DNA from: Streptomyces griseiscabiei
GTDB taxonomy: Bacteria; Actinomycetota; Actinomycetes; Streptomycetales; Streptomycetaceae
Length of the DNA: 64,000 nt
Reading direction: 5' to 3'
NCBI RefSeq assembly: GCF_020010925.1
Contig: NZ_JAGJBZ010000003.1
Coordinates: 806,001-870,000 of the forward strand
Below are positions 2,595 to 47,411 of the stretch, piece after piece (within the stretch, counting starts at the first letter, position 1; every line of letters begins with the position of its first letter). Position numbers and translations under genes: made by a program. The notes under the pieces are model-generated. The model saw only the letters and a program-made list of their open reading frames with translations, was not told the DNA's origin and made no database searches.

Positions 2595-3047
2595 GTGCTG
2601 ACGATTCACGCCGCCGACGAGGTACGGCGCACCTGGGACGACGACGCGCGGCCGATCAAGGACGGCGCCGTCGTGGTCGACGGCACCCGGGTCGTGGGCC
2701 TGGGCACGCTGGCCGAGGTCCGGGAGCGGTTCCCCGGGGCCCGGGTGCGGAGCTGGCCCGGCGTCCTCGGGCCCGGCCGGGTGCACGAAGGCCCGCTCCC
2801 GGACGCCCCGTCACCCCGTGAACGCGTCCACGCGGTGCTGAAGTCGGGCGCGGTCGCGGTGCTGGCGCGGTACGCCGACACCGCCGAACTGCGTGCCGCC
2901 GCCCAGCGGAACGACGTGGTCGTGCTGCCCGAGCCCCGCCCCACGACGCTCGTCGACACGGGCCGGGCGGACCTCACCGTCTTCGACCACTCCGGGACGT
3001 GCATGGCGACCGTGTGCGCCGGGCGTCTGGTCCACCGCCGCCGCTGA
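2595..3047 (+). CDS. Imidazolonepropionase/amidohydrolase-like small protein without the catalytic core
   Basis: A 150-residue protein whose start (LTIHAADEV, then GAVVVDGTRVVGLG) and end (GRADLTVFD, then GRLVHR) match the two halves of the beta-sandwich domain that brackets the TIM barrel of amidohydrolases. The barrel itself, with the HxH metal ligands, the carboxylated lysine and the final aspartate, is missing; only a short linker with VLKSGAVAVLARYADTAEL remains. It starts 7 bp after mqnC and is probably cotranscribed. Established knowledge: some futalosine pathways use an amidohydrolase to deaminate aminodeoxyfutalosine. This could be a reduced relative with a structural role, but it cannot be an active amidohydrolase by the usual mechanism. 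Confidence 0.75.
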   Translation: MLTIHAADEVRRTWDDDARPIKDGAVVVDGTRVVGLGTLAEVRERFPGARVRSWPGVLGPGRVHEGPLPDAPSPRERVHAVLKSGAVAVLARYADTAELRAAAQRNDVVVLPEPRPTTLVDTGRADLTVFDHSGTCMATVCAGRLVHRRR

Positions 3048-3062
3048 TCACCAGGGGCGCGC

Positions 3063-4106
3063 TCATCCCGAGAACGCCTCCCCGAACGCCCCGTCCCCCT
3101 GGTCGACCCCACTGCAGTCGACCAATGCGTCACTCGCCCCGTCCCCGCACTCCTGATCCCGGAACGTGGCCCACATCGACACCCACGCCACCCCCTTCTC
3201 CTCCGCGAACGCCCGCACCTGCGCCGCGTCCCGCAGCGTGAACGTCTCGTTGTCGACGTCGTTGACGCCCAGCATCGAGGTCAGCGCCAGCGCCCCCCAC
3301 GCCGTGGACTCGCTCGTGCCGAAGACGTCCATCAGCTGCTCGTGGGTCGCCTCGGCCGCCTGTTCCGCGTAGTCGCCCATGTCACCGTCGTACGAACTGG
3401 CGTAGTTCATGGTCATGATGTTGACGGTGGTGACCTGGACGGCCTTGTCGTTGGCCGAGGCGAGGAGGGCCATGCCGTCGTCGTCGAGGCCGGACGGCAT
3501 GACGGGGAGGGTGAAGGAGACGGAGAGGTCGGGGCGGTCCTTCTGGAGGAGCGCGATCGCCTCGGAGCGCAGCGCGACGGAGCCGGAGTCCTTGAGCGCG
3601 TCGCCCTCGACGTCGAAGTCGGCCGCGGTGGAGCCGGCCGCGTCGAGCGCCGCGCCGTACGCCTCGGCCAGCTCGGACGCGCTGTCGCAGGCCTGGGCCA
3701 GCTCCGTGCCCGAGGCGCCGCCGAAGGAGACCCGCACCGACGCCCCCGATGAGGTGAGCGCCGAGATCCGGGACCTCACCGCCGAGTCGTCGATCGCCTC
3801 CGTGCCGTTCCACGCGGGCGTGCACGCGTCCCCGTCGCCCTCGGCGATCACGAACGCCAGGTTGTACGCGGCGGCCGACCCGGCGTCGTCGAGGTCGGAG
3901 GCGTCGGTGGCGTTGACGTACGGCGCGTAGACCGTGGCCGTCCTCGCCGCCTCCGTCGCCTCCGTCGGCGCACCGGCCGGACTCGACGGGCTGCTGCTGG
4001 GCGGGGACGCGGACTCTTCGGTCTTCGTGGTGCAGCCCGCGCAGGCCAGGGCCATCAGACATATCAGCCCGACGGCCGGTTTCAGGGAATTCCTCACGGT
4101 ACTCAC
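3063..4106 (-). CDS. GH18 (chitinase-like) lipoprotein
   Basis: A 347-residue exported protein. The N-terminus is hydrophobic and ends in a cysteine followed by TTKTEESAS, a lipoprotein-like site, although the residue at -3 is Cys instead of the usual Leu. A Ser/Pro linker leads into a GH18-type barrel with NLAFVIAEGD, VRVSFGGASG and the catalytic DxDxE at D163, D165 and E167 (FDVEG), then the MTMNYA strand and a late Trp (WVSMWATF). It would hydrolyse a beta-1,4-linked GlcNAc-type polymer outside the cell. The gene is divergent from the polysaccharide operon at 4391-8192, so it may trim or release the polymer made there; that link is inference. Confidence 0.85.
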   Translation of the reverse strand: MSTVRNSLKPAVGLICLMALACAGCTTKTEESASPPSSSPSSPAGAPTEATEAARTATVYAPYVNATDASDLDDAGSAAAYNLAFVIAEGDGDACTPAWNGTEAIDDSAVRSRISALTSSGASVRVSFGGASGTELAQACDSASELAEAYGAALDAAGSTAADFDVEGDALKDSGSVALRSEAIALLQKDRPDLSVSFTLPVMPSGLDDDGMALLASANDKAVQVTTVNIMTMNYASSYDGDMGDYAEQAAEATHEQLMDVFGTSESTAWGALALTSMLGVNDVDNETFTLRDAAQVRAFAEEKGVAWVSMWATFRDQECGDGASDALVDCSGVDQGDGAFGEAFSG

Positions 4107-37276: not shown

Positions 37277-40126
37277 TCAGGAGGAGAGTGCGCGGCCGGC
37301 GTACGCCCGGACGTCGGCGTCGGAGTCCTTGGTGGCCGTGGTGAGGGCGGTGCGGGCTTCCTCGGTGGTGGTGTGGTGGGTGAGGGAGAGGACGGTGGCC
37401 TTGCGGACGTCGGCGTTGGGGTCGGTGAGGGTGGTGGTGAGGGCCGGGACGGCGAGGGGAGCGGGCGCGGTGGACAGGGCGGTGGCGGCGCCGGCGCGGA
37501 CCTGCCAGGCGGGGTCGGTGAGGGCGGTCACGGCCCGAGGGGCGAGACGGGGAGGGCAGCCGACGGTGCCCAGGGCGCCGTAGGCGGCGGCGCGCACCAA
37601 GGGGTCCGGATCGTCGGTCAGCGTGGTCAGGGTGGTGAGGACGGCGGGGAGAGGAGGGTGGGGTTCCGGGGCGTTCGTCGAGATCGTCGCCAAGGCCTTG
37701 GCGATGGTGACGCGGACCTCGCGGGACGGGTCGGTGGGTGCCGCGTGGGCGAGTTCGACGGCCGCGTCGACCGAGACGAGGGCGCGTACGGCCTCGATAC
37801 GGACGCCGATGTCGGAGTCCGCCAGCGAGCCCGCGAACAGGGCCGTGTCACCGAGGCTCAGCGCGCGCAGGACGTCCAGGGCGGCGGAGCGGACGACCGG
37901 GTCGGGCTCGGCCAGGGCGGCGGCGAGGCCGTCGCGCAGGGCGGGCTCGGGCGGGAGGGTCTCGACCAGTTCGCGCAGCGAGGCCGCCGCGGCGGCGCGT
38001 ACCTCGGCGGCGCTGTCGCGGAGCGCCTCGGCGAGGGCCGGGCCGGTGCCCGCCGGGAGGGTCTCCGTGAGGACGGCCACCGCCTCGCGCCGCACGGCCG
38101 GCGCCGGGTCGGCCAGGTAGGGCCGGAGGGCGTCGAGTTCGGGCTGCTCCTCGGCGAGGGCGACCAGTTCGAGGAGGCGGGTGGGGGAGGTGTGGGGGGT
38201 GGGGTGGGAGGGGAGGGGGAGGGCCCCCCTCCCCGACCCCGGCGAACCTGCTGCCTCCGCTGCCTCTGCTGCCCCCGCTGCCCCCGCGGCTCCCAATGCC
38301 CCCTCCGCCCCCGAGCCCCCCGCCGCCCCCGCCGCCACCGGTGCCACGTCCCGGGACCCCGCTGTCGCCACGTGCTCCGCGTGGACCTCGCCCAGGGGGC
38401 GGGACGGGCCGCCGACCGGGGTGAACTCGTCGATCGGGACCAGGTAGGGGGCGACGGGGCGGGCGGTGAACTCCATGGCGCCGGACGGGGACTTGTACAG
38501 GTCGAGGTGGTGGAACCAGGAGGTGTCGTCGCGGTGGGGGTGGTCGAGGCGGTCGTGGTAGAGGCCCCAGCGGGACTCGGTGCGGGCCAGGGAGGCGCGG
38601 GCGGCCATCTCGGCGCAGTCGCGGATGAAGGAGACCTCGGCGCAGCGCATGAGTTCGTGCGGGGTGCGGGCGCCCATCTCGGCGATGTCGTCCCGCATCC
38701 GCTCGAACGCCTCCAGTGCCAGCGAGAGCCGGGAGCCGGACTTCGGGGGCGCGACGTAGTCGTTGACGAAGCGGCGGAGTTTGTACTCGACCTGGGGCTG
38801 CGGGGGCCCGTCGGGGTTGCGCAGCGGGCGGTAGATCAGCTCGTGGGCGTCCCGGAGCTGGTCGGCGGGCAGTTCGCCCTCGTAGGGGGAGTGCCGGGAG
38901 GCGTCCGCGCCCGCGAGGTCGCCGAAGACGAAGGCGCCGATCATGTAGTTGTGCGGGACGCAGGCGAGGTCGCCGGCGGCGTAGAGGCGGGGGACGGTCG
39001 TACGGGCCTGGTCGTCGACGCGTACGCCCGAGGCCGAGTGGCCGCCGCACAGGCCGATCTCCGAGATGTGCATCTCGATGTCGTGGGTGCGGTAGTCGTG
39101 GCCGCGGCCGGAGTGGAAGGTGCCCCGGGTCGGGCGCTCGGTGGTGTGCAGGATCGATTCGAGGGCCGCGACGGACTCCTCCGGGAGGTGGCTCAGCTTC
39201 AGATAGACGGGGGCGCGGTCGGAGGCGATCTCGGCGGCGAACTCGGCCATCATCTGGCCGGACCAGTAGTCGGAGTCGACGAAGCGTTCGCCGTGCCGGT
39301 TGACCTGGTAGCCGCCGAAGGGGTTGGCGACATAGGCGCAGGCGGGGCCGTTGTAGTCCTTGATCAGCGGGTTGATCTGGAAGCACTCGATGCCGGTGAG
39401 TTCGGCGCCCGCGTGGTAGGCCATGGCGTAGCCGTCGCCCGCGTTGGTGGGGTTCTCGTAGGTGCCGTAGAGATAGCCGGAGGCGGGGAGCCCGAGCCGG
39501 CCGCACGCGCCGGTCGCGAGGATCACCGCGCCGGCGCGCACGGTGACGAACGCGCCGCTACGGGTGTTGAACCCGACGGCCCCCACCGCCCTGCGCTCCG
39601 CGCCCTCGCCGGCCGTCAGCACGCGCACCGGCATGACCCGGTTCTCGATGCGGATGCGCTCGCGCATCTCGCGCCGCCGCAGCTGCCGGTAGAGGACCTT
39701 CTTGACGTCCTTGCCCTCGGGCATGGGCAGCACGTACGAGCCGGAGCGGTGGACCTGGCGGACGGCGTACTCGCCCAGCTCGTCCTTCTCGAACTTCACC
39801 CCGTACGACTCCAGCCGCCGGACCATGTCGAAGCCACGGGTGGCGGTCTGGCGGACCGTGGACTGGTCGACGATGCCGTCGTTGGCGCGGGTGATCTCGG
39901 CGACGTAGTCGTCGGGCTCGGCGCGGCCGGGGATGACGGCGTTGTTGACGCCGTCCATGCCCATGGCGAGGGCGCCCGAGTGACGGACGTGCGCCTTCTC
40001 CAGGAGCAGGACGTTCGCGCCGTGCTCGGCTGCGGTGAGGGCCGCCATGGTGCCGGCGGTGCCGCCGCCGATGACGAGGACGTCGCAGGTGAGTTCTTCG
40101 GCGGCGGTGAGGGCGGGGATCTCCAC
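37277..40126 (-). CDS. AprA-like FAD oxidoreductase fused to a C-terminal HEAT-repeat domain
   Basis: A 949-residue protein in two parts. Residues 1-565 are a fumarate-reductase/APS-reductase-type flavoprotein: VLVIGGGTAGTMAALTAAEH binds FAD, and GLCGGHSASGVRVDDQA (H363) and YAAGDLACVPHNYMIGAF match catalytic and FAD segments. The following helical domain (HELMRCAEV, ARTESRWGLYHDRLD) resembles AprA, the alpha subunit of APS reductase, more than SdhA. An Ala/Gly/Pro linker (about 580-648) leads to eight to ten HEAT repeats (AVRREAVAVL-like units) to the end. It is the last gene of a six-gene operon with an AprB-like ferredoxin and an ABC transporter. The substrate is unknown. Confidence 0.85.
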   Translation of the reverse strand: MEIPALTAAEELTCDVLVIGGGTAGTMAALTAAEHGANVLLLEKAHVRHSGALAMGMDGVNNAVIPGRAEPDDYVAEITRANDGIVDQSTVRQTATRGFDMVRRLESYGVKFEKDELGEYAVRQVHRSGSYVLPMPEGKDVKKVLYRQLRRREMRERIRIENRVMPVRVLTAGEGAERRAVGAVGFNTRSGAFVTVRAGAVILATGACGRLGLPASGYLYGTYENPTNAGDGYAMAYHAGAELTGIECFQINPLIKDYNGPACAYVANPFGGYQVNRHGERFVDSDYWSGQMMAEFAAEIASDRAPVYLKLSHLPEESVAALESILHTTERPTRGTFHSGRGHDYRTHDIEMHISEIGLCGGHSASGVRVDDQARTTVPRLYAAGDLACVPHNYMIGAFVFGDLAGADASRHSPYEGELPADQLRDAHELIYRPLRNPDGPPQPQVEYKLRRFVNDYVAPPKSGSRLSLALEAFERMRDDIAEMGARTPHELMRCAEVSFIRDCAEMAARASLARTESRWGLYHDRLDHPHRDDTSWFHHLDLYKSPSGAMEFTARPVAPYLVPIDEFTPVGGPSRPLGEVHAEHVATAGSRDVAPVAAGAAGGSGAEGALGAAGAAGAAEAAEAAGSPGSGRGALPLPSHPTPHTSPTRLLELVALAEEQPELDALRPYLADPAPAVRREAVAVLTETLPAGTGPALAEALRDSAAEVRAAAAASLRELVETLPPEPALRDGLAAALAEPDPVVRSAALDVLRALSLGDTALFAGSLADSDIGVRIEAVRALVSVDAAVELAHAAPTDPSREVRVTIAKALATISTNAPEPHPPLPAVLTTLTTLTDDPDPLVRAAAYGALGTVGCPPRLAPRAVTALTDPAWQVRAGAATALSTAPAPLAVPALTTTLTDPNADVRKATVLSLTHHTTTEEARTALTTATKDSDADVRAYAGRALSS

Positions 40127-40137
40127 CAGAGGGCCTT

Positions 40138-40947
40138 TCAGGAACCGAGTGAGGTCAACACGGAGCGGCGCAGGGTCACGCGGGCCGGGTCGTCGTGGGC
40201 GGTGCGGTCGCGGGGGCGCGGGATGTCGCGTACGGCGGTGAGGCGGCCGGAGCCGAGGAGGGCCACGCGGTCGCCGAGGAACAGGGCCTCGTCCACGTCG
40301 TGGGTGACGAAGACGACCGTGGCGCCGGTGCCCCGCAACACCTCCACCAGCAGGTCCTGCATCCCGGCGCGGGTCTGGGCGTCGAGCGCCCCGAACGGCT
40401 CGTCCATCAGGACGGCGCGGGGGCGCCCGGCGAGCGCGCGGGCGAGTTGCGCGCGCTGGCGCTGTCCGCCGGAGACGCGGTGCGGCAGCTGCCGGGTGTA
40501 CTCGGCGAGCCCGACCCGGGACAGCCACTCCTCGGCCTGCGTGCGGCGTTCGGCGCGGGGCAGGCCGCGGATGGCGAGCGGGAGTTCGACGTTGGCGCGC
40601 AGGGTGCGCCAGGGCAGCAGGGCGTCCTCCTGGAAGACCAGGGCGCGTTCGGCGGACGGGCCGGTCAGGGGGGTGCCGTCCTGGGTGATCCCGCCGTCGA
40701 GCGGCGGCAGCAGGCCCGCCAGGGTGCGCAGCAGGGTCGACTTGCCGCAGCCGGAGGGGCCGACGACGGTGAGGATCTCGCCGGGGGCGATGTCCAGGTC
40801 GACGCCGGTCAGGGCGACCGCGTCGGGGCGGCCCAGGTCGGCGCCCCGGAGCGCGAGGCGGATGCCGCGCACGCCGGCGGGCGCCCGGTCCTCGCGTGCC
40901 GGTGCCTCTTCGCGGGCGCGGGCCCGCGTCTCAGACGAGGTGCTCAT
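40138..40947 (-). CDS. ABC transporter ATPase (SsuB/TauB-like)
   Basis: A 269-residue ATPase of the nitrate/sulfonate/taurine group. Walker A is VGPSGCGKSTLLR, the Q-loop EDALLPWRT, the signature VSGGQRQRAQLARAL and Walker B AVLMDEPFGALD, then the H-loop VTHDVDEA. It overlaps the permease gene end, and the ATG at 40947 follows GAGGAGG. It energises import of the ligand bound by the 41914-43263 protein. Confidence 0.92.
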   Translation of the reverse strand: MSTSSETRARAREEAPAREDRAPAGVRGIRLALRGADLGRPDAVALTGVDLDIAPGEILTVVGPSGCGKSTLLRTLAGLLPPLDGGITQDGTPLTGPSAERALVFQEDALLPWRTLRANVELPLAIRGLPRAERRTQAEEWLSRVGLAEYTRQLPHRVSGGQRQRAQLARALAGRPRAVLMDEPFGALDAQTRAGMQDLLVEVLRGTGATVVFVTHDVDEALFLGDRVALLGSGRLTAVRDIPRPRDRTAHDDPARVTLRRSVLTSLGS

Positions 40948-41917
40948 CACGTGCCTCCTCGGCCGTGGCTGCGGTTCCGGGGGCGGTGGCTGTGGCGGCC
41001 GACGCGGCAGGGGCGGCGGCCGGTGCCGTCGCGGCTCGGGGCGCCCGGGGGCGCGCGACGGCGGCGTAGGACGTACGCGGGAGCCAGTGGGTGAGCCGGC
41101 GGCCGAGCAGTTCCACGGCCGTCGACGTCAGCCAGCCCAGCACACCGATCGTGGCCATGCCGACGAAGACGCCGGGGTAGTCGACGACCGTGTAGTCCTG
41201 CCAGGTGCGGTAGCCGACGCCGTACTGGCCGGAGATCATCTCGGCGGAGATCACACAGATCCAGGACACCCCGATGCCGACCGACAGGCCGCCGAAGATG
41301 CCCGGCAGCGCGCCCGGCAGGACGACGGAGGCGAGGACCCGCCACCGGCCGCCGCCCATGGTGCGGACGGCCTCCTCCCACACGGGGGTCAGGGCCCGTA
41401 CGGCGTGCCGGGTGGAGACCAGGACCGGGAAGAACGCGGCGGTGAAGGTGATGAAGACGATGCCCTGCTCGTTGGAGGGGAACAGCAGGATCGCGACCGG
41501 GACGAGGGCGATCGCCGGGATGGGGCGGATCACCTCGAGGACCGGTCCGAGCAGGTCCTCGGCGAGCCGGGACCGGGCGATCAGGATGCCGGTCGCCACA
41601 CCCGCCACCGCCGCCAGCAGGAAGCCGGTGAGGATGCGGGTGAGGCTGTCGGTCAGGTCCGTCCAGTAGTCGGGGCCGGAGACCCGGTCCGCGAAGGTGT
41701 GCGCCACGTCCGTGACCGTGGGGAACTGCGAGAACCGCAGCCATAGGTCGATGTCCTGGCTGGTCAGCAGCTGCCAGAGGGCGAGGGCCGCGACCAGGGA
41801 CAGGGCGCGCAGCGCGTAGCGGGCGGCGACGGGCCGCCGGGAGCGGCGGCCCGGCCCGCGCACCTTGCCGGGCCCGCCCGCCGTGCCCGGCCCGCGCTCT
41901 TTGCCGGGGCGGCTCAC
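40931..41917 (-). CDS. ABC transporter permease (SsuC/TauC-like)
   Basis: A 328-residue membrane protein with about six transmembrane helices and the permease motif EEAVRTMGGGRWRVLASVVLPGAL facing the ATPase (EAA loop). GPVLEVIRPIPAIALVPVAIL is typical of the sulfonate/nitrate/taurine group. The GTG overlaps the binding-protein stop (GTGA). The N-terminus is Arg/Gly/Pro-rich and the C-terminus has an Ala/Thr-rich tail. Confidence 0.92.
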   Translation of the reverse strand: MSRPGKERGPGTAGGPGKVRGPGRRSRRPVAARYALRALSLVAALALWQLLTSQDIDLWLRFSQFPTVTDVAHTFADRVSGPDYWTDLTDSLTRILTGFLLAAVAGVATGILIARSRLAEDLLGPVLEVIRPIPAIALVPVAILLFPSNEQGIVFITFTAAFFPVLVSTRHAVRALTPVWEEAVRTMGGGRWRVLASVVLPGALPGIFGGLSVGIGVSWICVISAEMISGQYGVGYRTWQDYTVVDYPGVFVGMATIGVLGWLTSTAVELLGRRLTHWLPRTSYAAVARPRAPRAATAPAAAPAASAATATAPGTAATAEEARDEHLV

Positions 41918-43263
41918 GACGCCCGCTCCAGGGCGGTCGCGTAGGTGACGATCCCGGCGCCGTCGTGCCCGGCGACGTACGCCTTCGCCGTGGCCGGGGC
42001 GACGAAGGGGAGGAGCCGGTCCCCGTCGGCGACCCACACCGCCTTGTCGGCGAACCACTGCGTCCCGGTCGTGGCGTCGGGGACGTACGCGGCACGGACG
42101 GCGTCCTGGTGCGCGGCGACGTAGGCGAGCAGCTCGGCCGGTGTGGCGAAGGACTCGGTCTCGTCGGCGCCCTTGGGCCAGACCTCGCTCTCCGCCGGGG
42201 CGGGGGCCGCGGCGAGCTGCTTCGTGTACGCCGAGGCGCCGAGCGCCTTGCGGACGTACCGGTCGTCGACGAAGGCGTCCACGTCCACGTCGCCCGTCAG
42301 TTTCGCGGCCTCGAGGATCGGGACGTCCTTCTTCAGGGCGGCGATCAGCGCGGGCTTCAGGGCCGGGTCGAAGGTGGCGATGCCGTGGGCGCCGTTGTAG
42401 AGGTAGACGACCTCGGCGGGCAGTCCCGTCGCGTCGGCGACCTTCTCGGCGGCCTTGACGGGGTGCTCGTTCAGGTAGTCCGTGGCCTTGGCCTGGGCCT
42501 TGAGGAAGGCCTCCAGGACGGCCGGCCGCCGCTTCGCGAAGTCCTCGCGGGCGGTCACGCCGTGGAACGTGGGCAGGTCGAGCTGCGCGCCGTCGTACAG
42601 GGCCTTCGCCTTGCCCTGGTACGTCAGCAGGCCCGGCCACGCCACGAACTGCGACAGGGCGTCCGCGCTGCCCCCGGAGAGGGCGGAGGCGCCGACGGCC
42701 GGCTGCTGGTTGAGCTTCTCGATGTCCTTGTCGGCGTCGAGACCGGCGTCCCGCAGCGCTCGTACGAGAGTGCCGTCGGCCGCCGAACCGACGCTCGTCG
42801 AGACCTTCTTGCCCTTCAGGTCCGTCAGCGTGCTCAGCTTCGAGTCCGGTGCCGTGACGATGGTGTTGAGCCCGCCGCGGAGGTTGTAGCCGGTGGCCGC
42901 GACCAGCCGGGTGGGCTTGCCGAGCTGTTTGCCGCGGGCCGCGTTGAGCAGCAGCGGGAAGTCGCCCATCGAGCCGATGTCGATCTTCCCGGCGGTCATC
43001 TGGGCGGTGATGGGGGCGCCGGTCGCGTAGTCCTGCCAGTCGACCTTGTACGTCTTCCCGTCACCGAGCGCGTTCAGCTCGTCCTCGAAGTAGCCGAGGG
43101 AGCGCAGCAGGGTGCCGGCGGTGACGGTGTTGATGGTCTTGGACTGGTAGCCGACGGTGACGGTGACCGTGGAGCCGTCGTCCCCGGCCGCCGCGCTGCC
43201 GCCGCAGGCCGTCAGGGGCGCGAGCAGCAGCAGGGAGGCGGCGATGACTGCCTTGTGTTTCAT
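41914..43263 (-). CDS. Sulfonate/nitrate-type substrate-binding lipoprotein with a NosL-like C-terminal extension
   Basis: A 449-residue lipoprotein. The signal ends in LLAPLTAC with the lipobox Cys. Residues 30-345 form an NMT1/SsuA-type binding domain (VTVGYQSKTINTVTAGTLLR, GKIDIGSMGDFPLLLNA, VAATGYNLRGGLNTIV, DLKGKKVSTSVGSAADG). The last 100 residues are extra: SFATPAELLAYV, AYVPDATTGTQWFADKAVWV and LLPFVAPATAKAYVAGHDG follow the strand order of NosL, the N2O-reductase copper accessory protein, but its N-terminal Cys/Met copper site is not seen. The ligand is unknown. Confidence 0.88.
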   Translation of the reverse strand: MKHKAVIAASLLLLAPLTACGGSAAAGDDGSTVTVTVGYQSKTINTVTAGTLLRSLGYFEDELNALGDGKTYKVDWQDYATGAPITAQMTAGKIDIGSMGDFPLLLNAARGKQLGKPTRLVAATGYNLRGGLNTIVTAPDSKLSTLTDLKGKKVSTSVGSAADGTLVRALRDAGLDADKDIEKLNQQPAVGASALSGGSADALSQFVAWPGLLTYQGKAKALYDGAQLDLPTFHGVTAREDFAKRRPAVLEAFLKAQAKATDYLNEHPVKAAEKVADATGLPAEVVYLYNGAHGIATFDPALKPALIAALKKDVPILEAAKLTGDVDVDAFVDDRYVRKALGASAYTKQLAAAPAPAESEVWPKGADETESFATPAELLAYVAAHQDAVRAAYVPDATTGTQWFADKAVWVADGDRLLPFVAPATAKAYVAGHDGAGIVTYATALERAS

Positions 43264-43279
43264 GGGAGTTCGGGACCTT

Positions 43280-43507
43280 TCACCGGAGCAGGTAGGGCAT
43301 GTTGACCGTGACGGCTCCGGTGGGACAGCGGGCCGCGCACGGGCCGCAGTACCAGCACTCGTCGACGTGCATATAGGCCTTGCCGTTGCTCTCGTCGATG
43401 GCGAGGGAGTCCAGCGGGCACATGTCCACGCACAGGGTGCAGCCGTCGATGCACTTCGACTCGTCGATGGTCACGGGCACGTCGGCCCGCTGGGGCGCCA
43501 AGGGCAT
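43280..43507 (-). CDS. AprB-like ferredoxin with two [4Fe-4S] clusters
   Basis: A 75-residue iron-sulfur protein. Cluster ligands appear as CIDGCTLCVDMCP (CX3CX2CX3CP, one residue longer in the first gap than usual) and CWYCGPCAARCP (CX2CX2CX3CP). The short extra insertion in the first motif and the acidic linker recall AprB, the electron-carrying subunit of APS reductase. It likely passes electrons to or from the HEAT-fused flavoprotein encoded in the same operon. It starts 60 bp after the regulator gene. Confidence 0.9.
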   Translation of the reverse strand: MPLAPQRADVPVTIDESKCIDGCTLCVDMCPLDSLAIDESNGKAYMHVDECWYCGPCAARCPTGAVTVNMPYLLR

Positions 43508-43567
43508 GGCTGTCTCCAGGAAGGTCCTACAGGGGGGCGGAACTGAGGGCAGGGGTACGGCGGCCCG

Positions 43568-44380
43568 CTACGACCGGTGCAGCAGGCCGCTCATGGTGAT
43601 GCGGTCGCCGCGGAAGCGGATGAACTCCAGGTCGACGGGGCGGCCGTCGGCGAGGTGGGTGAGGCGTTCCAGCATCAGGACGGCCGAGCCGCGGGGGGCT
43701 TCGAGTACGGCGGCGGAGTGGGTGTCCGCGTTCACCGCCTCCAGGGTGATCTCGGCGTGGCCCAGGCGCCGGCCGGTGATCGTCTCCAGCAGGCGGAAGA
43801 CGTCGGTGTTCTCCAGGTCGGCGCCGAGCAGGGCCGTGCCGAGGTCGAGGGTGCCGAGGGCCAGGGGGATGTAGGTGAGGTCGAGGGAGAGGGGGAGGCC
43901 GTTCAGGCGGCGCAGACGTTCGATGTAGAGGACGTCGGTGCCGGGTGGGAGGTGGAGGCGGTCCGCCACGGGGGTGGGGGCGGGGGCCGGGCCCATGGTG
44001 CGGACCTCGTTGGTGACCGTGCCGTGTTCGCGGAGGGTTTCCGCGAGGCCCATCAGACGGTCGAGGCCGTGGGGGTACTTCTGGCCGACGACGACGGTGC
44101 CGACGCCGGGGGAGCGTTCCACGAGGCCTTCGGCCCGCAGGAGGTCCAGGGCCTCGCGGACCGTGTTGCGGGTGGCGCGGTAGTCGGTGGCGAGGGCGGA
44201 CTCGTGGGGGAGGGTGCCGTTCTCGAAGCCGTCGGTGAGGAGTTGGCGGCGGAGGAGATCGGCGAGCTGCCGGGCCTGGTCCGCGCGCAGCCGGCGCCGC
44301 GCGCGGTGGGCGGCGACGGTGGTCGCGCCCTGGCCGGCGTGGTCCCGGATGCGGTCGGTGGGTGGCATGTTTTGAACCAT
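43568..44380 (-). CDS. GntR-family regulator with UTRA domain (HutC type)
   Basis: A 270-residue repressor. The winged helix-turn-helix is near residues 35-95 (RQLLTDGFENGTLPHESALA, TRNTVREALDLLRAEGLVER). The UTRA effector domain follows, with VLYIERLRRLNGLPLSLDLTYIP and VNADTHSAAVLEAPRGSAVLM. It heads the operon with the ferredoxin, transporter and flavoprotein and probably controls it in response to the imported compound. ATG 44380 or ATG 44368 are both possible starts; neither has a clear ribosome-binding site. Confidence 0.88.
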   Translation of the reverse strand: MVQNMPPTDRIRDHAGQGATTVAAHRARRRLRADQARQLADLLRRQLLTDGFENGTLPHESALATDYRATRNTVREALDLLRAEGLVERSPGVGTVVVGQKYPHGLDRLMGLAETLREHGTVTNEVRTMGPAPAPTPVADRLHLPPGTDVLYIERLRRLNGLPLSLDLTYIPLALGTLDLGTALLGADLENTDVFRLLETITGRRLGHAEITLEAVNADTHSAAVLEAPRGSAVLMLERLTHLADGRPVDLEFIRFRGDRITMSGLLHRS

Positions 44381-44399: not shown

Positions 44400-44420
44400 G
44401 AATGTTGCGGGAATGTTGCG
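44400..44420. promoter_or_regulatory. Direct repeat upstream of the GntR operon
   Basis: GAATGTTGCG occurs at 44400-44409 and again at 44411-44420, an 11-bp period, so the two copies lie on the same helical face. The pair is 20 bp upstream of the regulator's first possible start and is the best operator candidate here. No palindrome of the usual GntR type is seen. Confidence 0.4.
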
Positions 44421-44623
44421 CCATGTGAGGGGGTGGCGATCAGAGGGTTGAGCTGGGGTTTTGCGGGGGGTGTGAGGAAGATCTGCCACCCGGGTGTCCA
44501 AGGAGTGGGAACGGCGTGCCGGTGGCTGGGACGCGTCGCCGTTGCCGTCGCGCGGGGGCCGGGCGGGGCCGGGCGGGGGTGGGGTCCGCGGCTCGGCGGT
44601 TGCGAGGCGCCGCCTGCGCCCAC

Positions 44624-44696: not shown

Positions 44697-45941
44697 CTAC
44701 TCCCGCCCCCTGATCCGCCCCGTCACCTCGCCCAGCCCCACCCTCGTGCCGCCCGGTCCCGGGGCCCAGGCCGTGAGGGTCACCTCGTCGCCGTCCTCCA
44801 GGAACGCGCGCTTGCCGGTGGGGAGGTCGAGCGGGTCCCGGCCGTTCCAGGTCAGCTCCAGCAGGGAGCCGCGCTGGCCGGGGGCGGGTCCGCTGACCGT
44901 GCCGGAGCCGTAGAGGTCGCCGGTGCGCAGGGAGGCGCCGTTGACGGTCATATGGGCCAGTTGCTGGGAGGCGGTCCAGTACATCGTGGAGAACGGCGGC
45001 TCGGAGACGACGTGACCGTTGACGGCGACGGTGATGCGCAGGTCGTAGCCGCCGGGGTCGATGTCCGGCGCGGAGTCGTCCAGGTAGGGCAGCAGCGTGT
45101 GCGTGCGCTCCGGCGGAGCCACCCGCGCCTCGTCCAGGGCGTCCAGCGGGGTGATCCAGGCCGACACCGACGTGGCGAAGGACTTCCCGAGGAACGGTCC
45201 GAGGGGCACGTACTCCCAGGCCTGGAGGTCCCGCGCCGACCAGTCGTTGAGGAGGCAGACCCCGAAGACGTGGTCGCGGAAGTCCCCGAGCCCCACCGGC
45301 CGCCCCTGTTCCGTGGGCGTGCCCACCACGAACCCGACCTCCGCCTCGATGTCGAGCCGCACGGACGGGCCGAACACGGGCGCCGGGTCGGTGGGCGCCT
45401 TGCGCTGCCCGGACGGCCGTACCACCTCGGTGCCGGAGACGACAACGGTGCCGGACCGGCCGTGGTAACCGATGGGCAGATGCTTCCAGTTGGGGGTCAG
45501 CGGGTCCGGTGAGTCGGGCCGGAAGATCTTTCCCACGTTCCGCGCGTGGTTCTCGGAGGCGTAGAAGTCGACGTAGTCGGCCACCTCGAAGGGCAGATGG
45601 AGGGTCACCTCGGACAGGGGGTGGAAGTGCGGTGCGATCGTCTCCCGGTGGGAGGGCACCGTCAGCCAGGCCGTCAGCGCCCGGCGCAGGTCCGACCAGG
45701 CCGTGCGCCCGGCCGCCAGCAGCGGGTTGAGCGTGGGGTGGGCCAGCAGCGCGGCGTACGGGGAACCGAGGGCGCGAGCCGCCGCCGCGGCGTCCAGGAC
45801 ATGGTCGCCGAGGCGGACACCGACCGTACGGGCGGCGGAACCGCCGTCGGAGGAGGCGTCGGAACCGGCGGTGGAGAACACCCCGTAGGGGAGGTTGTGC
45901 GGACCGAAGGGGTGGCCCTCGGGGACATCGAAGGGGGGCAT
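44697..45941 (-). CDS. Fumarylacetoacetase
   Basis: A 414-residue hydrolase for the last step of tyrosine and phenylalanine breakdown, giving fumarate and acetoacetate. The typical start (FGPHNLPYGVFS), DFYASENHARNVGKIFRP, GYHGRSGTVVVSGTEVVRP, the metal-binding DIEAEVGFVVG, NDWSARDLQAWEYVPLGPFL and GSGTVSGP all match the family. The frame runs on upstream through the ATP-grasp region, but the ATG at 45941 is the family start. It is divergent from the ATP-grasp gene. Confidence 0.95.
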   Translation of the reverse strand: MPPFDVPEGHPFGPHNLPYGVFSTAGSDASSDGGSAARTVGVRLGDHVLDAAAAARALGSPYAALLAHPTLNPLLAAGRTAWSDLRRALTAWLTVPSHRETIAPHFHPLSEVTLHLPFEVADYVDFYASENHARNVGKIFRPDSPDPLTPNWKHLPIGYHGRSGTVVVSGTEVVRPSGQRKAPTDPAPVFGPSVRLDIEAEVGFVVGTPTEQGRPVGLGDFRDHVFGVCLLNDWSARDLQAWEYVPLGPFLGKSFATSVSAWITPLDALDEARVAPPERTHTLLPYLDDSAPDIDPGGYDLRITVAVNGHVVSEPPFSTMYWTASQQLAHMTVNGASLRTGDLYGSGTVSGPAPGQRGSLLELTWNGRDPLDLPTGKRAFLEDGDEVTLTAWAPGPGGTRVGLGEVTGRIRGRE

Positions 45942-46133: not shown

Positions 46134-47411
46134 GTGGGGGGACCCGTGGCCAGGGGTACTTGGGGTGCGCCGGTACAGGCGGACCGAAGCGTTCCGGGGC
46201 TGGTGGTGAAGCTCGGCGACTATCCGCTGCACCATGGCGGAGTCGGGGCCATCCGCAGCCTGGGCCGGCTCGGCGTGCCGATGTACGCGATCACGGAGGA
46301 CCGGTACACACCGGCGGCCGTCTCGCGCTATCTGCGGCGCGCGTTCGTCTGGCCGACCACCGGGACGGAGGAGCCCGGGTGGCTGGTGGACGGCCTGCTG
46401 CGCATCGGCCGGCGGATCGGCCGGCCGACCGTGCTCATACCCACCGACGAGGAGGCCGCGGTGCTCATCGCCGAGCACCAGGAGGAACTGGCGACCCGGT
46501 TCCTCTTCCCCCGCGTCGACGGGAAGCTCCCGCGCAGGCTCGCCAGCAAACAGGGGCTGCACGAACTCTGCGTGGAACACGGCATCGCCAGCCCGGTCAG
46601 CTCCTTCCCGCAGTCGTACGACGACGTCGAACGGTTCGCGCGGCGGGCCCGCTTCCCGGTGGTGGCCAAGAACCGGGAGGCGTTCGAACGGCGCAGGCAG
46701 CCCGCGGTGAACGGCACGACCCGCATCGCCGACCCGGAGGGCCTGCTGCGGCTGGCCCGCGGCTGGGGCGACCGCCCCGGGGTGATCCTCCAGGAGTACC
46801 TGCCCCGGGAGGAGGCCGAGGACTGGATCGTGCACGCCTACTTCGACGCGGACTCGACCCCGCTCGCGATGTTCACCGGGGTCAAGGTGCGGTCGTGGCC
46901 GCCGCACGCGGGGATGACGGCGAACGCGTACGTCGTCGACAACCCCGAACTCGCGGACATCGCGGCCCGGTTCATCAAACAGATCGGGTTCACCGGGGTC
47001 ATCGACCTCGATCTGCGGTTCGACCGCCGGGACGGGCGGTACAAGCTGCTCGACTTCAACCCCCGGATGGGCGCGCAGTTCCGGCTGTTCGAGAACGAGG
47101 CCGGGATCGACGTCGTCCGCGCCATGCACCTCGATCTGACCGGCCGGCCGGTGCCGGAGGGGGAGCAGCTCGCCGGGCGCCGGTACATCGTGGAGAACAT
47201 CGACCTCCCGGCGCTGCTCGCCTACCGGCGCAGTGGATACACCACCCCGCACGCGCCGGCGCGCGCGAGCGGTACGGAGCTGGCGTGGCTCGCGGGTGAC
47301 GACCCGCTGCCGTTCCTCACGATGCTCGCGCGCTTCGTGCGCCCGGGTGCGAAACACCTCTACCAACTGTGGCGCACCAACCGCCTCGGCAACGCCCATG
47401 TGCGCCCCTAG
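46134..47411 (+). CDS. ATP-grasp protein (carboxylate-amine ligase-like)
   Basis: A 425-residue ATP-grasp enzyme. After an unusual opening (VPGLVVKLGDYPLHHGGVGAIRSLG) come the ATP-grasp core elements: KLPRRLASKQGLHELCVEHG, FPVVAKNREAF (ATP Lys), VILQEYLPREEAEDWIVHAY, TGVIDLDLRFD and LLDFNPRMGAQFRLFEN (metal Asn). The acid and amine substrates are unknown. Starts at GTG 46134 or GTG 46146 both follow G-rich stretches. The FAD oxidoreductase starts 105 bp downstream on the same strand, suggesting a joint pathway. Confidence 0.85.
   Translation: MGGPVARGTWGAPVQADRSVPGLVVKLGDYPLHHGGVGAIRSLGRLGVPMYAITEDRYTPAAVSRYLRRAFVWPTTGTEEPGWLVDGLLRIGRRIGRPTVLIPTDEEAAVLIAEHQEELATRFLFPRVDGKLPRRLASKQGLHELCVEHGIASPVSSFPQSYDDVERFARRARFPVVAKNREAFERRRQPAVNGTTRIADPEGLLRLARGWGDRPGVILQEYLPREEAEDWIVHAYFDADSTPLAMFTGVKVRSWPPHAGMTANAYVVDNPELADIAARFIKQIGFTGVIDLDLRFDRRDGRYKLLDFNPRMGAQFRLFENEAGIDVVRAMHLDLTGRPVPEGEQLAGRRYIVENIDLPALLAYRRSGYTTPHAPARASGTELAWLAGDDPLPFLTMLARFVRPGAKHLYQLWRTNRLGNAHVRP

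Follow-up and report, generated by a model that had tools for sequence, protein, structure and literature searches.

To our knowledge, the routes by which aerobes release sulfur from sulfonates depend on oxygenases (SsuD, TauD). The AsfAB system of Pseudomonas putida S-313 has likewise been proposed to work with an oxygenase; in a review (PMC4267179), the asf cluster comprises a reductase and ferredoxin, a solute-binding protein (SBP), an ABC transporter, and a regulator for aromatic desulfonation. AsfAB is the nearest described system to the six-gene set analyzed here, which occupies positions 37277–44380 on the minus strand of a 64,000-nucleotide stretch of Streptomyces griseiscabiei DNA (contig NZ_JAGJBZ010000003.1, positions 806,001 to 870,000; the window). 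The set encodes a GntR-type regulator, a ferredoxin, a complete ABC importer, and a flavoprotein fused to HEAT repeats. Judged from its sequence, the flavoprotein is a new branch beside the reductases of adenosine 5'-phosphosulfate (APS; enzyme Apr) and 3'-phosphoadenosine 5'-phosphosulfate (PAPS; enzyme PAPSR), with a changed active site. We tentatively read the set as a ferredoxin-dependent reductase with the architecture of APS reductase, a flavin adenine dinucleotide (FAD) subunit plus a 2×[4Fe-4S] subunit, that would act on an organosulfonate-type substrate delivered by its own SsuABC-type importer, release sulfite, and rely on a dedicated iron–sulfur (Fe-S) helper; this seems to us quite possible, though short of probable.

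All six genes are intact, and the coordinates given by a sequence-only reading of the window that preceded this work were confirmed. Domains were assigned by Pfam and NCBIfam profile searches with family cut-offs. In order, the minus-strand genes are gntR (43568–44380), a 270-residue GntR-family regulator with a UTRA ligand domain (PF00392, 2.8e-14; PF07702, 2e-31); a 75-residue AprB/PAPSR-beta-like ferredoxin (43280–43507; Fer4_7, 4.3e-10), a 2×[4Fe-4S] dicluster protein by both Pfam and NCBIfam; a 449-residue SBP lipoprotein of the SsuA/NMT1 type (41914–43263; NMT1, 6.4e-15) with a lipobox-like LTACGG at its N-terminus; a 328-residue permease (40931–41917; BPD_transp_1, 4.6e-21, query 40934–41863), the start of which was set by its 4-bp overlap with the SBP stop; a 269-residue ATPase of the taurine/nitrate type (40138–40947; ABC_tran, 1.3e-30); and a 949-residue FAD flavoprotein with a GTG start (37277–40126). 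The flavoprotein comprises FAD_binding_2 (residues 15–390), Succ_DH_flav_C (449–563), a low-complexity linker (∼566–645), and a HEAT region (∼647–948), with a GGHSASG motif at residues 361–367; its flavin part (residues 1–566) is of the Apr/Frd fold. A structure model shows, with good confidence, 19 helices at residues 647–948, corresponding to 9–10 HEAT repeats. The intergenic gaps from gntR to the flavoprotein gene are 60, 16, −4, −17, and 11 bp, and the GC content at third codon positions is 0.94–0.97 for the six genes. The operon as outlined by the sequence-only reading, with overlaps or short gaps, a UTRA-type regulator, a two-cluster AprB-like ferredoxin, a complete SsuABC/TauABC-like importer with SBP, permease, and ATPase, a 949-residue AprA-like flavoprotein, and eight to ten HEAT repeats, is thus borne out, with no gap exceeding 60 bp.

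The fused protein is a member of an already catalogued sequence family, NCBIfam NF010374 (PRK13800), which it matches over residues 1–948 with 1653.2 bits against a cut-off of 1196; the flavoprotein also exceeds the cut-off of NF006131 (PRK08275). Both families are named by general similarity only, and no tested function for NF010374 was found. No paper describing this family or gene set was found in the open-access literature, most subscription papers lying outside that search, and the sole mention of PRK13800 met there is a domain match on a fungal HEAT protein (PMC8401276). The best PDB match of the flavoprotein is PAPSR of Methanothermococcus thermolithotrophicus (MtPAPSR; 8a8o_A, E 3.2e-52). 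In a 32-row tree, the family (12 rows) forms a branch of its own (support 100/99), and the 14 Apr/PAPSR rows form a separate clade (100/99) that joins the family with support 96/93; the SdhA/NadB and AsfA-like rows fall outside both. The family therefore lies beside the Apr/PAPSR clade, not within it. Two earlier trees agree with this sister placement; one held four wrong-strand rows (L110, L111, L112, and L120; loci are numbered with the prefix L), while the other had the right strand and was without the half-length Archaeoglobus fulgidus row. Because of long branches, how the Apr, Sdh, and AsfA-like groups are placed relative to one another is less certain than the family clade. Placement inside SdhA/NadB, an outcome that would have told against the sequence-only reading, was not seen.

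Three proteins from the window's phylum were met in this comparison. The flavoprotein of L018 (216 bits with NF006131 and 172 bits with NF005331) sits on a very long branch, clearly in neither group, and its position shifted between the two earlier trees. L016 and L017 are Apr-like alpha subunits over the NF005331 cut-off from two small genomes (1.8 Mb), and the L016 protein is identical to one named for an Actinobacteria metagenome-assembled genome.

Active-site residues were mapped by alignment onto A. fulgidus AprA, which is represented by alignment pieces only, and onto MtPAPSR, using 117 flavoproteins (the window and 116 loci). A narrower comparison sets 17 family rows against 29 Apr-like rows, which are relatives of L016 over the NF005331 but not the TIGR02061 cut-off. 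We take Glu141, Trp234, and Arg265 to be APS/sulfate ligands of A. fulgidus AprA, and the residue types agree in the alignment. Asn74 of AprA and the GGH histidine are kept as N61 and H363 in 117/117 family members and 29/29 Apr-like rows, while Arg265, Trp234, and Gln145 are replaced by L254, Y223, and V132, respectively, in every one of the 117, and the place of Glu141 (position 128) holds M in 83, S in 22, L in 9, and V in 3. Gln145 is an APS ligand, in A. fulgidus numbering, according to the MtPAPSR report (PMC10322725). At the two arginine positions (columns 249 and 254), 29/29 Apr-like rows have R; the 17 family rows have F (16) or Y (1) at the first and L (17) at the second. Asn61, Lys256, Pro261, His363, Arg519, and Trp520 are common to the family and the 29 Apr-like rows, and column 257 is D in all 17 family rows and D (28) or E (1) in the Apr-like rows. 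Further residues are invariant across the 117 (C248, Q250, N252, Y258, N259, W288, H392, N393, and Y394). The replacement of the APS-ligand residues suggests a protein that is Apr-like but not an APS or PAPS reductase, and a pocket that is unlike that of Apr yet strictly constrained points to one chemistry throughout the family.

The ferredoxin is equally constrained, with eight Cys residues and Trp52 (CWYC, within a CWxCxPC motif) invariant in 117/117 sequences. It scores 36.3 bits with the AprB model TIGR02060 (cut-off 135.65); its PDB matches include 3gyx_B, 1jnr_B, and 8a8o_C (2.1e-6), and polyferredoxins and others score higher than AprB. The corresponding AprB tryptophan is presumably Trp-B48 of A. 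fulgidus. By our reading of the motif, Trp52 would stand at the place of MtPAPSR Trp42, so that the features of a PAPSR-type beta subunit, the cysteines for two [4Fe-4S] clusters and a tryptophan of the electron-transfer type, appear to be present. Trp42 has been proposed to serve electron transfer in MtPAPSR (PMC10322725). FdxA adjoins the set in 4/116 loci (L023, L135, L136, and L137) and in one of three further annotated loci (L169). It is accompanied by a Pyr_redox_2 protein of 458 residues in L135 and of 1153 residues in L023, by a ferredoxin-NADP reductase (FNR) in L169, and by POR_N in L137. Donor-like neighbors in three lineages (Actinobacteria, Acidithiobacillus, and Methylobacterium) favor operation in the direction of reduction.

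The gene set is real, conserved, and broader than the sequence-only reading had claimed. A tblastn search of plasmids with the flavin part matched 126 records; among the 60 listed, 48 cover at least 93% of the query at 54–80% identity, and the listed matches span Actinobacteria, Proteobacteria, and cyanobacteria. The NF006131 cut-off is exceeded in 46 of 394 genomes of the window's class and 8 of 296 of its phylum; the window's genome is included and has exactly one such match. The nearest named relatives of the flavin part are from Streptomyces (97% identical). All seven functions occur together in 20/20 actinobacterial loci, sampled from the 46 positive genomes, a recurrence that argues for a gene set beyond chance. 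A scan of named genomes, made with an alignment headed by a Cupriavidus row, took the best 80 of 574 relatives, all Proteobacteria, so these loci lean to Proteobacteria and to near relatives. Within 9 kb, these 80 loci carry the ferredoxin in 80 cases, GntR in 78, HEAT in 77, DUF971 in 67, the ATPase in 62, the SBP in 59, and the permease in 57; a tblastn recount gave 78 for HEAT and 60 for the SBP. The two loci with no HEAT match, L042 and L054, lie on contigs that end 2.3 and 0.3 kb past the flavoprotein match. The commonest proteobacterial order (24/80) is GntR–flavoprotein–ferredoxin–SBP–permease–ATPase–HEAT–DUF971. Flanking genes for Pfam searches were chosen with a codon-based gene caller in 20 loci. 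Co-occurrence of the six genes elsewhere, which the sequence-only reading had left to a neighborhood survey, is therefore seen in actinobacterial, proteobacterial, and plasmid loci. That reading had also held a sulfate-reducer-type AprBA to be unexpected in an aerobic Streptomyces. The flavoprotein is indeed not AprBA, its APS ligands being replaced, but its family occurs widely among bacteria that are usually cultured in air and so is not out of place in Streptomyces.

The survey bears directly on the HEAT region. In 16 of the 20 actinobacterial loci the repeats are fused, in the order GntR–ferredoxin–SBP–permease–ATPase–flavoprotein::HEAT, while four (L134–L137) are unfused and read flavoprotein–HEAT–ferredoxin–SBP–permease–ATPase, with gntR upstream (divergent in L136). 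HEAT is present in 16/16 plasmid loci, as a separate gene in 15 and fused in Tsukamurella, and the proteobacterial HEAT is a separate open reading frame (ORF) starting 0.2–3.9 kb after the flavoprotein match. The tree includes six fused rows (L120, the window, Tsukamurella, L010, L114, and L117), which form one group among Actinobacteria (96/99), with the four unfused actinobacterial rows outside it; a single fusion is the simplest reading. Since HEAT is a separate nearby gene outside this group, the fusion appears to be secondary, and its existence suggests that HEAT acts on or with the flavoprotein.

The genes next to HEAT suggest what this action might be. A Mrp/NBP35 gene follows HEAT in 4/4 cyanobacterial loci and lies near the set in L135 and L136; a weak Mrp match in L047 (29%) was left out of account. 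In Proteobacteria, DUF971 (Pfam GBBH-like_N), a domain that also occurs in plant HCF101 and is present in 67/80 loci, lies after HEAT or before the flavoprotein. With the probes used, the two kinds of gene occur together in 0/116 loci. By analogy, we put forward the hypothesis that HEAT and either Mrp/NBP35 or DUF971 form an Fe-S maturation set. The docking platform proposed for HEAT in the sequence-only reading is thus only one option beside a maturation role, because HEAT is a formerly separate conserved gene that occurs near Mrp/NBP35 or DUF971.

Upstream of the set, a candidate operator or promoter element, TGGCGCAACATTCCCGCAACA, lies at 44403–44423 on the minus strand, 22 bp upstream of the annotated gntR start. 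The pattern TGGCGCAAYNNTNNNGYAACA, allowing up to one mismatch, has one match in the window and none in 100 shuffles. An exact match also occurs upstream of gntR in L146–L150, which with the window makes 6/6 Streptomyces loci covering the region; there is none in the other 15 actinobacterial loci of the sample. Several alphaproteobacterial and cyanobacterial loci have Crp/Fnr or LysR genes near the set and no GntR. The LysR of one cyanobacterial locus (L154, 5646–7661, minus strand) has a weak C-terminal NMT1-like match (3.6e-4), so it may sense the same class of ligand as the SBP of the importer. Beyond the operon, the window encodes an ATP-grasp-like protein (46134–47411, plus strand; only a sub-cut-off Pfam match, PF15632, 5.5e-5), the gene of which adjoins a fumarylacetoacetase gene (44697–45908, minus strand).

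These observations can be combined in the following mechanism. Electrons from NAD(P)H or pyruvate would pass to FdxA, from there to the AprB-like ferredoxin, and then by way of Trp52 to the FAD. In Apr-like N5-sulfite chemistry, the reduced FAD would then attack the sulfo group of the substrate, an organosulfonate or another sulfo compound taken up by the importer, and the sulfite would be released for assimilation, with any surplus exported where TauE/SafE exists. HEAT, with DUF971 or Mrp/NBP35 where present, may mature or dock the Fe-S partner, and the UTRA regulator may sense either the substrate or a product. That an oxidoreductase acts on a compound taken up from outside, perhaps an organosulfur one, had been suggested from the window alone; as an inference this is supported, together with the AprA-like flavoprotein, the AprB-like ferredoxin, and the SsuA/TauA-like importer of that reading. 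Several points weigh against the mechanism. In place of the sulfo-holding arginines and the Trp of Apr, the family has F/Y, L, and Y, so that Apr chemistry is not simply transferable; a plain carbon sulfonate carries a poor leaving group for such chemistry, which would favor S-, N-, or O-sulfo or activated compounds. FdxA neighbors are rare (5/119 loci), and no SBP was detected nearby in 20–21 of the 80 proteobacterial loci. Four TSUP (TauE) probes in tblastn at 1e-8, the sensitivity of which for a divergent family is uncertain, found 0/100 non-plasmid loci, and TauE genes are common (4–11 in each of 20 genomes). Finally, some neighbors are of another kind: thiamine genes in L170, amidases in L021 and L157, and an ammonium transporter, a nitrogen-type neighbor, in L161.

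The last of these points feed the alternative that we consider unlikely rather than remote, namely that the importer delivers something other than a sulfur compound and the enzyme reduces another anion. Importers of the NMT1 family also carry nitrate, bicarbonate, pyrimidines, and others, and none of the three importer proteins reaches a sulfonate or taurine cut-off: the SBP scores 143.3 bits with SsuA_fam (cut-off 163.5), the ATPase 220.5 bits with PRK11248 (taurine), its best NCBIfam model (cut-off 357), and the permease 118.8 bits with the taurine model (cut-off 342). The nearest model of the regulator is the phosphonate PhnF, again below the cut-off (94.5 against 156.8 bits). Nevertheless, three of the four PDB matches of the SBP are labeled for sulfonate or taurine (two SsuA-type and one taurine SBP), and the fourth, 3e4r, labeled a nitrate transport protein, is one that we take to be a sulfonate binder. 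Exporters of the sulfite/sulfate type (YeiH-type and TauE/SafE) adjoin the set in 3/4 cyanobacterial loci (L154, L155, and L168, but not L021), and the flavoprotein itself is kin to sulfur enzymes. A sulfur compound is our best guess for the substrate class, as far as these comparisons can suggest one.

Other sulfur-related genes occur near the set. TauE/SafE adjoins it in 4/19 annotated plasmid loci (L154, L155, L161, and L168), and in the Aquabacterium locus it adjoins gntR; in L024 a TSUP gene lies ∼7 kb off, behind unrelated genes. As a general partner of the set, TauE is rejected by the plasmid and non-plasmid counts. In P. largidicola, a luciferase-type oxidoreductase, 3-mercaptopropionate dioxygenase, and rhodanese follow the set, and in Ralstonia (L030) a protein with four rhodanese stretches precedes it. 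L144 encodes a sulfite-oxidase-type molybdenum enzyme (Oxidored_molyb and Mo-co_dimer; 2800–3837, minus strand) ∼3 kb downstream of a fused flavoprotein gene, from which it is separated by an ORF on the opposite strand.

A second alternative, which we hold to be rather improbable, keeps the sulfonate and changes the chemistry: the flavoprotein and ferredoxin would only supply electrons, and the imported compound would be cleaved by a separate oxygenase, as proposed for AsfAB of P. putida S-313. The asf cluster has the same kinds of genes as described (PMC4267179), and luciferase-type monooxygenases lie in the flanks of 7/80, 1/20, and 3/16 loci, but no oxygenase was found conserved with the set. 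The megaplasmid of Cupriavidus metallidurans CH34 carries asfRAB according to its genome paper (PMC2864759). It has no match over the NF006131 cut-off, and one of its three weak matches is a flavoprotein–ferredoxin pair (L027/L029, Rmet_4334/5; NC_007974.2, 922000–936000), consisting of a 549-residue flavoprotein and a 111-residue 2×[4Fe-4S] ferredoxin, convergent to apparent SBP, ATPase, permease, and amidohydrolase genes as read from ORFs. By its arrangement only, this pair is perhaps AsfAB. A search with its flavoprotein returned no AsfA name among the 120 matches listed of 5039; relatives among those listed come from Bradyrhizobium, Azospirillum, Achromobacter, and cyanobacteria. No primer sequence for asfA was found in the open-access literature. 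The family flavoproteins fall outside the clade of the pair, taken as AsfAB on this footing and with the S-313 sequence not in the comparison, in all three trees. The C. metallidurans flavoprotein (31% identity over 243 residues) belongs to a distant clade, from which the GGH His and Trp520 are missing, and its partner ferredoxin has no counterpart of the Trp.

That the proteins are a genuine AprBA or PAPSR serving sulfate assimilation or sulfite oxidation is highly improbable. MtPAPSR is the best sequence match and comes first by fold, yet tied with FrdA (26.7 vs 25.9). The residues at the APS-ligand places differ, with the replacements of Gln145, Trp234, and Arg265 invariant in the 117; the scores are far under the AprA cut-offs (126.1 against 641.75 bits for TIGR02061 and 250.1 against 557 bits for NF005331); and an importer would serve no purpose for APS. 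The window's genome has five PF01507 (PAPS_reduct) matches elsewhere, which makes it probable that ordinary assimilation of sulfate can do without the operon, although PF01507 also covers CysD-type proteins. On residues, family cut-offs, and trees, a true AprBA/PAPSR identity is rejected. Least probable by our estimate is a standard fumarate reductase/succinate dehydrogenase or L-aspartate oxidase, the name given by NCBIfam and most named relatives and one with which the tied FrdA fold score agrees, since the best tree in which the family groups with SdhA/NadB is rejected (p-AU 0.032, a modest value), the scores lie far below the cut-offs (133.4 against 567.3 bits for SdhA/FrdA, TIGR01812; 110.4 against 452.75 bits for nadB), the partner is an Apr-type ferredoxin, and separate SdhA and NadB, both over their cut-offs, are encoded in the genome, so that this identity is likewise rejected.

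Extending the ferredoxin-dependent reductase that we favor to all these lineages yields a bolder proposal, which we regard as speculative and on balance improbable: an oxygen-independent, reductive route from organosulfonates to sulfite across several phyla, many of whose members are aerobes, with an Apr-related enzyme of new, fully conserved active site (KDYNGP, GTYENP, and VPHNYM motifs) that would be fed by NADPH, FNR, and FdxA and matured by a dedicated Fe-S delivery set, with an MMS19-like HEAT adaptor acting for a Mrp/NBP35 or DUF971 carrier. If true, a widespread reductive-looking set would change the reading of sulfur turnover in soils, rhizospheres, and cyanobacteria; the Apr fold would have a further functional branch besides APS and PAPS, and bacteria would perhaps have a client-specific Fe-S helper of the HEAT type. 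The present annotation of these flavoproteins as fumarate reductase/succinate dehydrogenase is misleading.

Compared with known systems, the set combines features that are found apart. In the eukaryotic cytosolic Fe-S assembly machinery, MMS19, a HEAT protein, is a docking part of the Fe-S targeting complex (PMC6211773); a HEAT solenoid serves Fe-S clients there, as a HEAT gene lies near Mrp/NBP35 and a 2×[4Fe-4S] protein here, an analogy only, HEAT solenoids being common. SsuABC/TauABC share kinship of SBP, permease, and ATPase with the importer, whereas all three proteins here fall below the sulfonate and taurine cut-offs and the SBP is longer (449 residues vs 298–348 for its PDB matches). 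The asfRABC system (P. putida S-313 and C. metallidurans) likewise joins a flavoprotein and ferredoxin to an SBP/ABC importer with predicted sulfonate use, but it has LysR instead of GntR, no HEAT protein is named for it, and the C. metallidurans pair, AsfAB by arrangement only, is a separate clade without the GGH or CW motif. AprBA (TIGR02061/TIGR02060) is built in the same way and has the Asn and His in common with the family, while the APS ligands are absent here and the ferredoxin has 75 residues against 150–166 for AprB chains. MtPAPSR (8a8o) also pairs an FAD alpha subunit with a 2×[4Fe-4S] beta subunit carrying a Trp, and shares the Asn, KD, GGH, and RxE(T/S)RW motifs; the family described here, however, retains neither the two Apr arginines nor Trp206 nor the nucleotide loop, and its set also includes an importer, a HEAT partner, and a GntR regulator.

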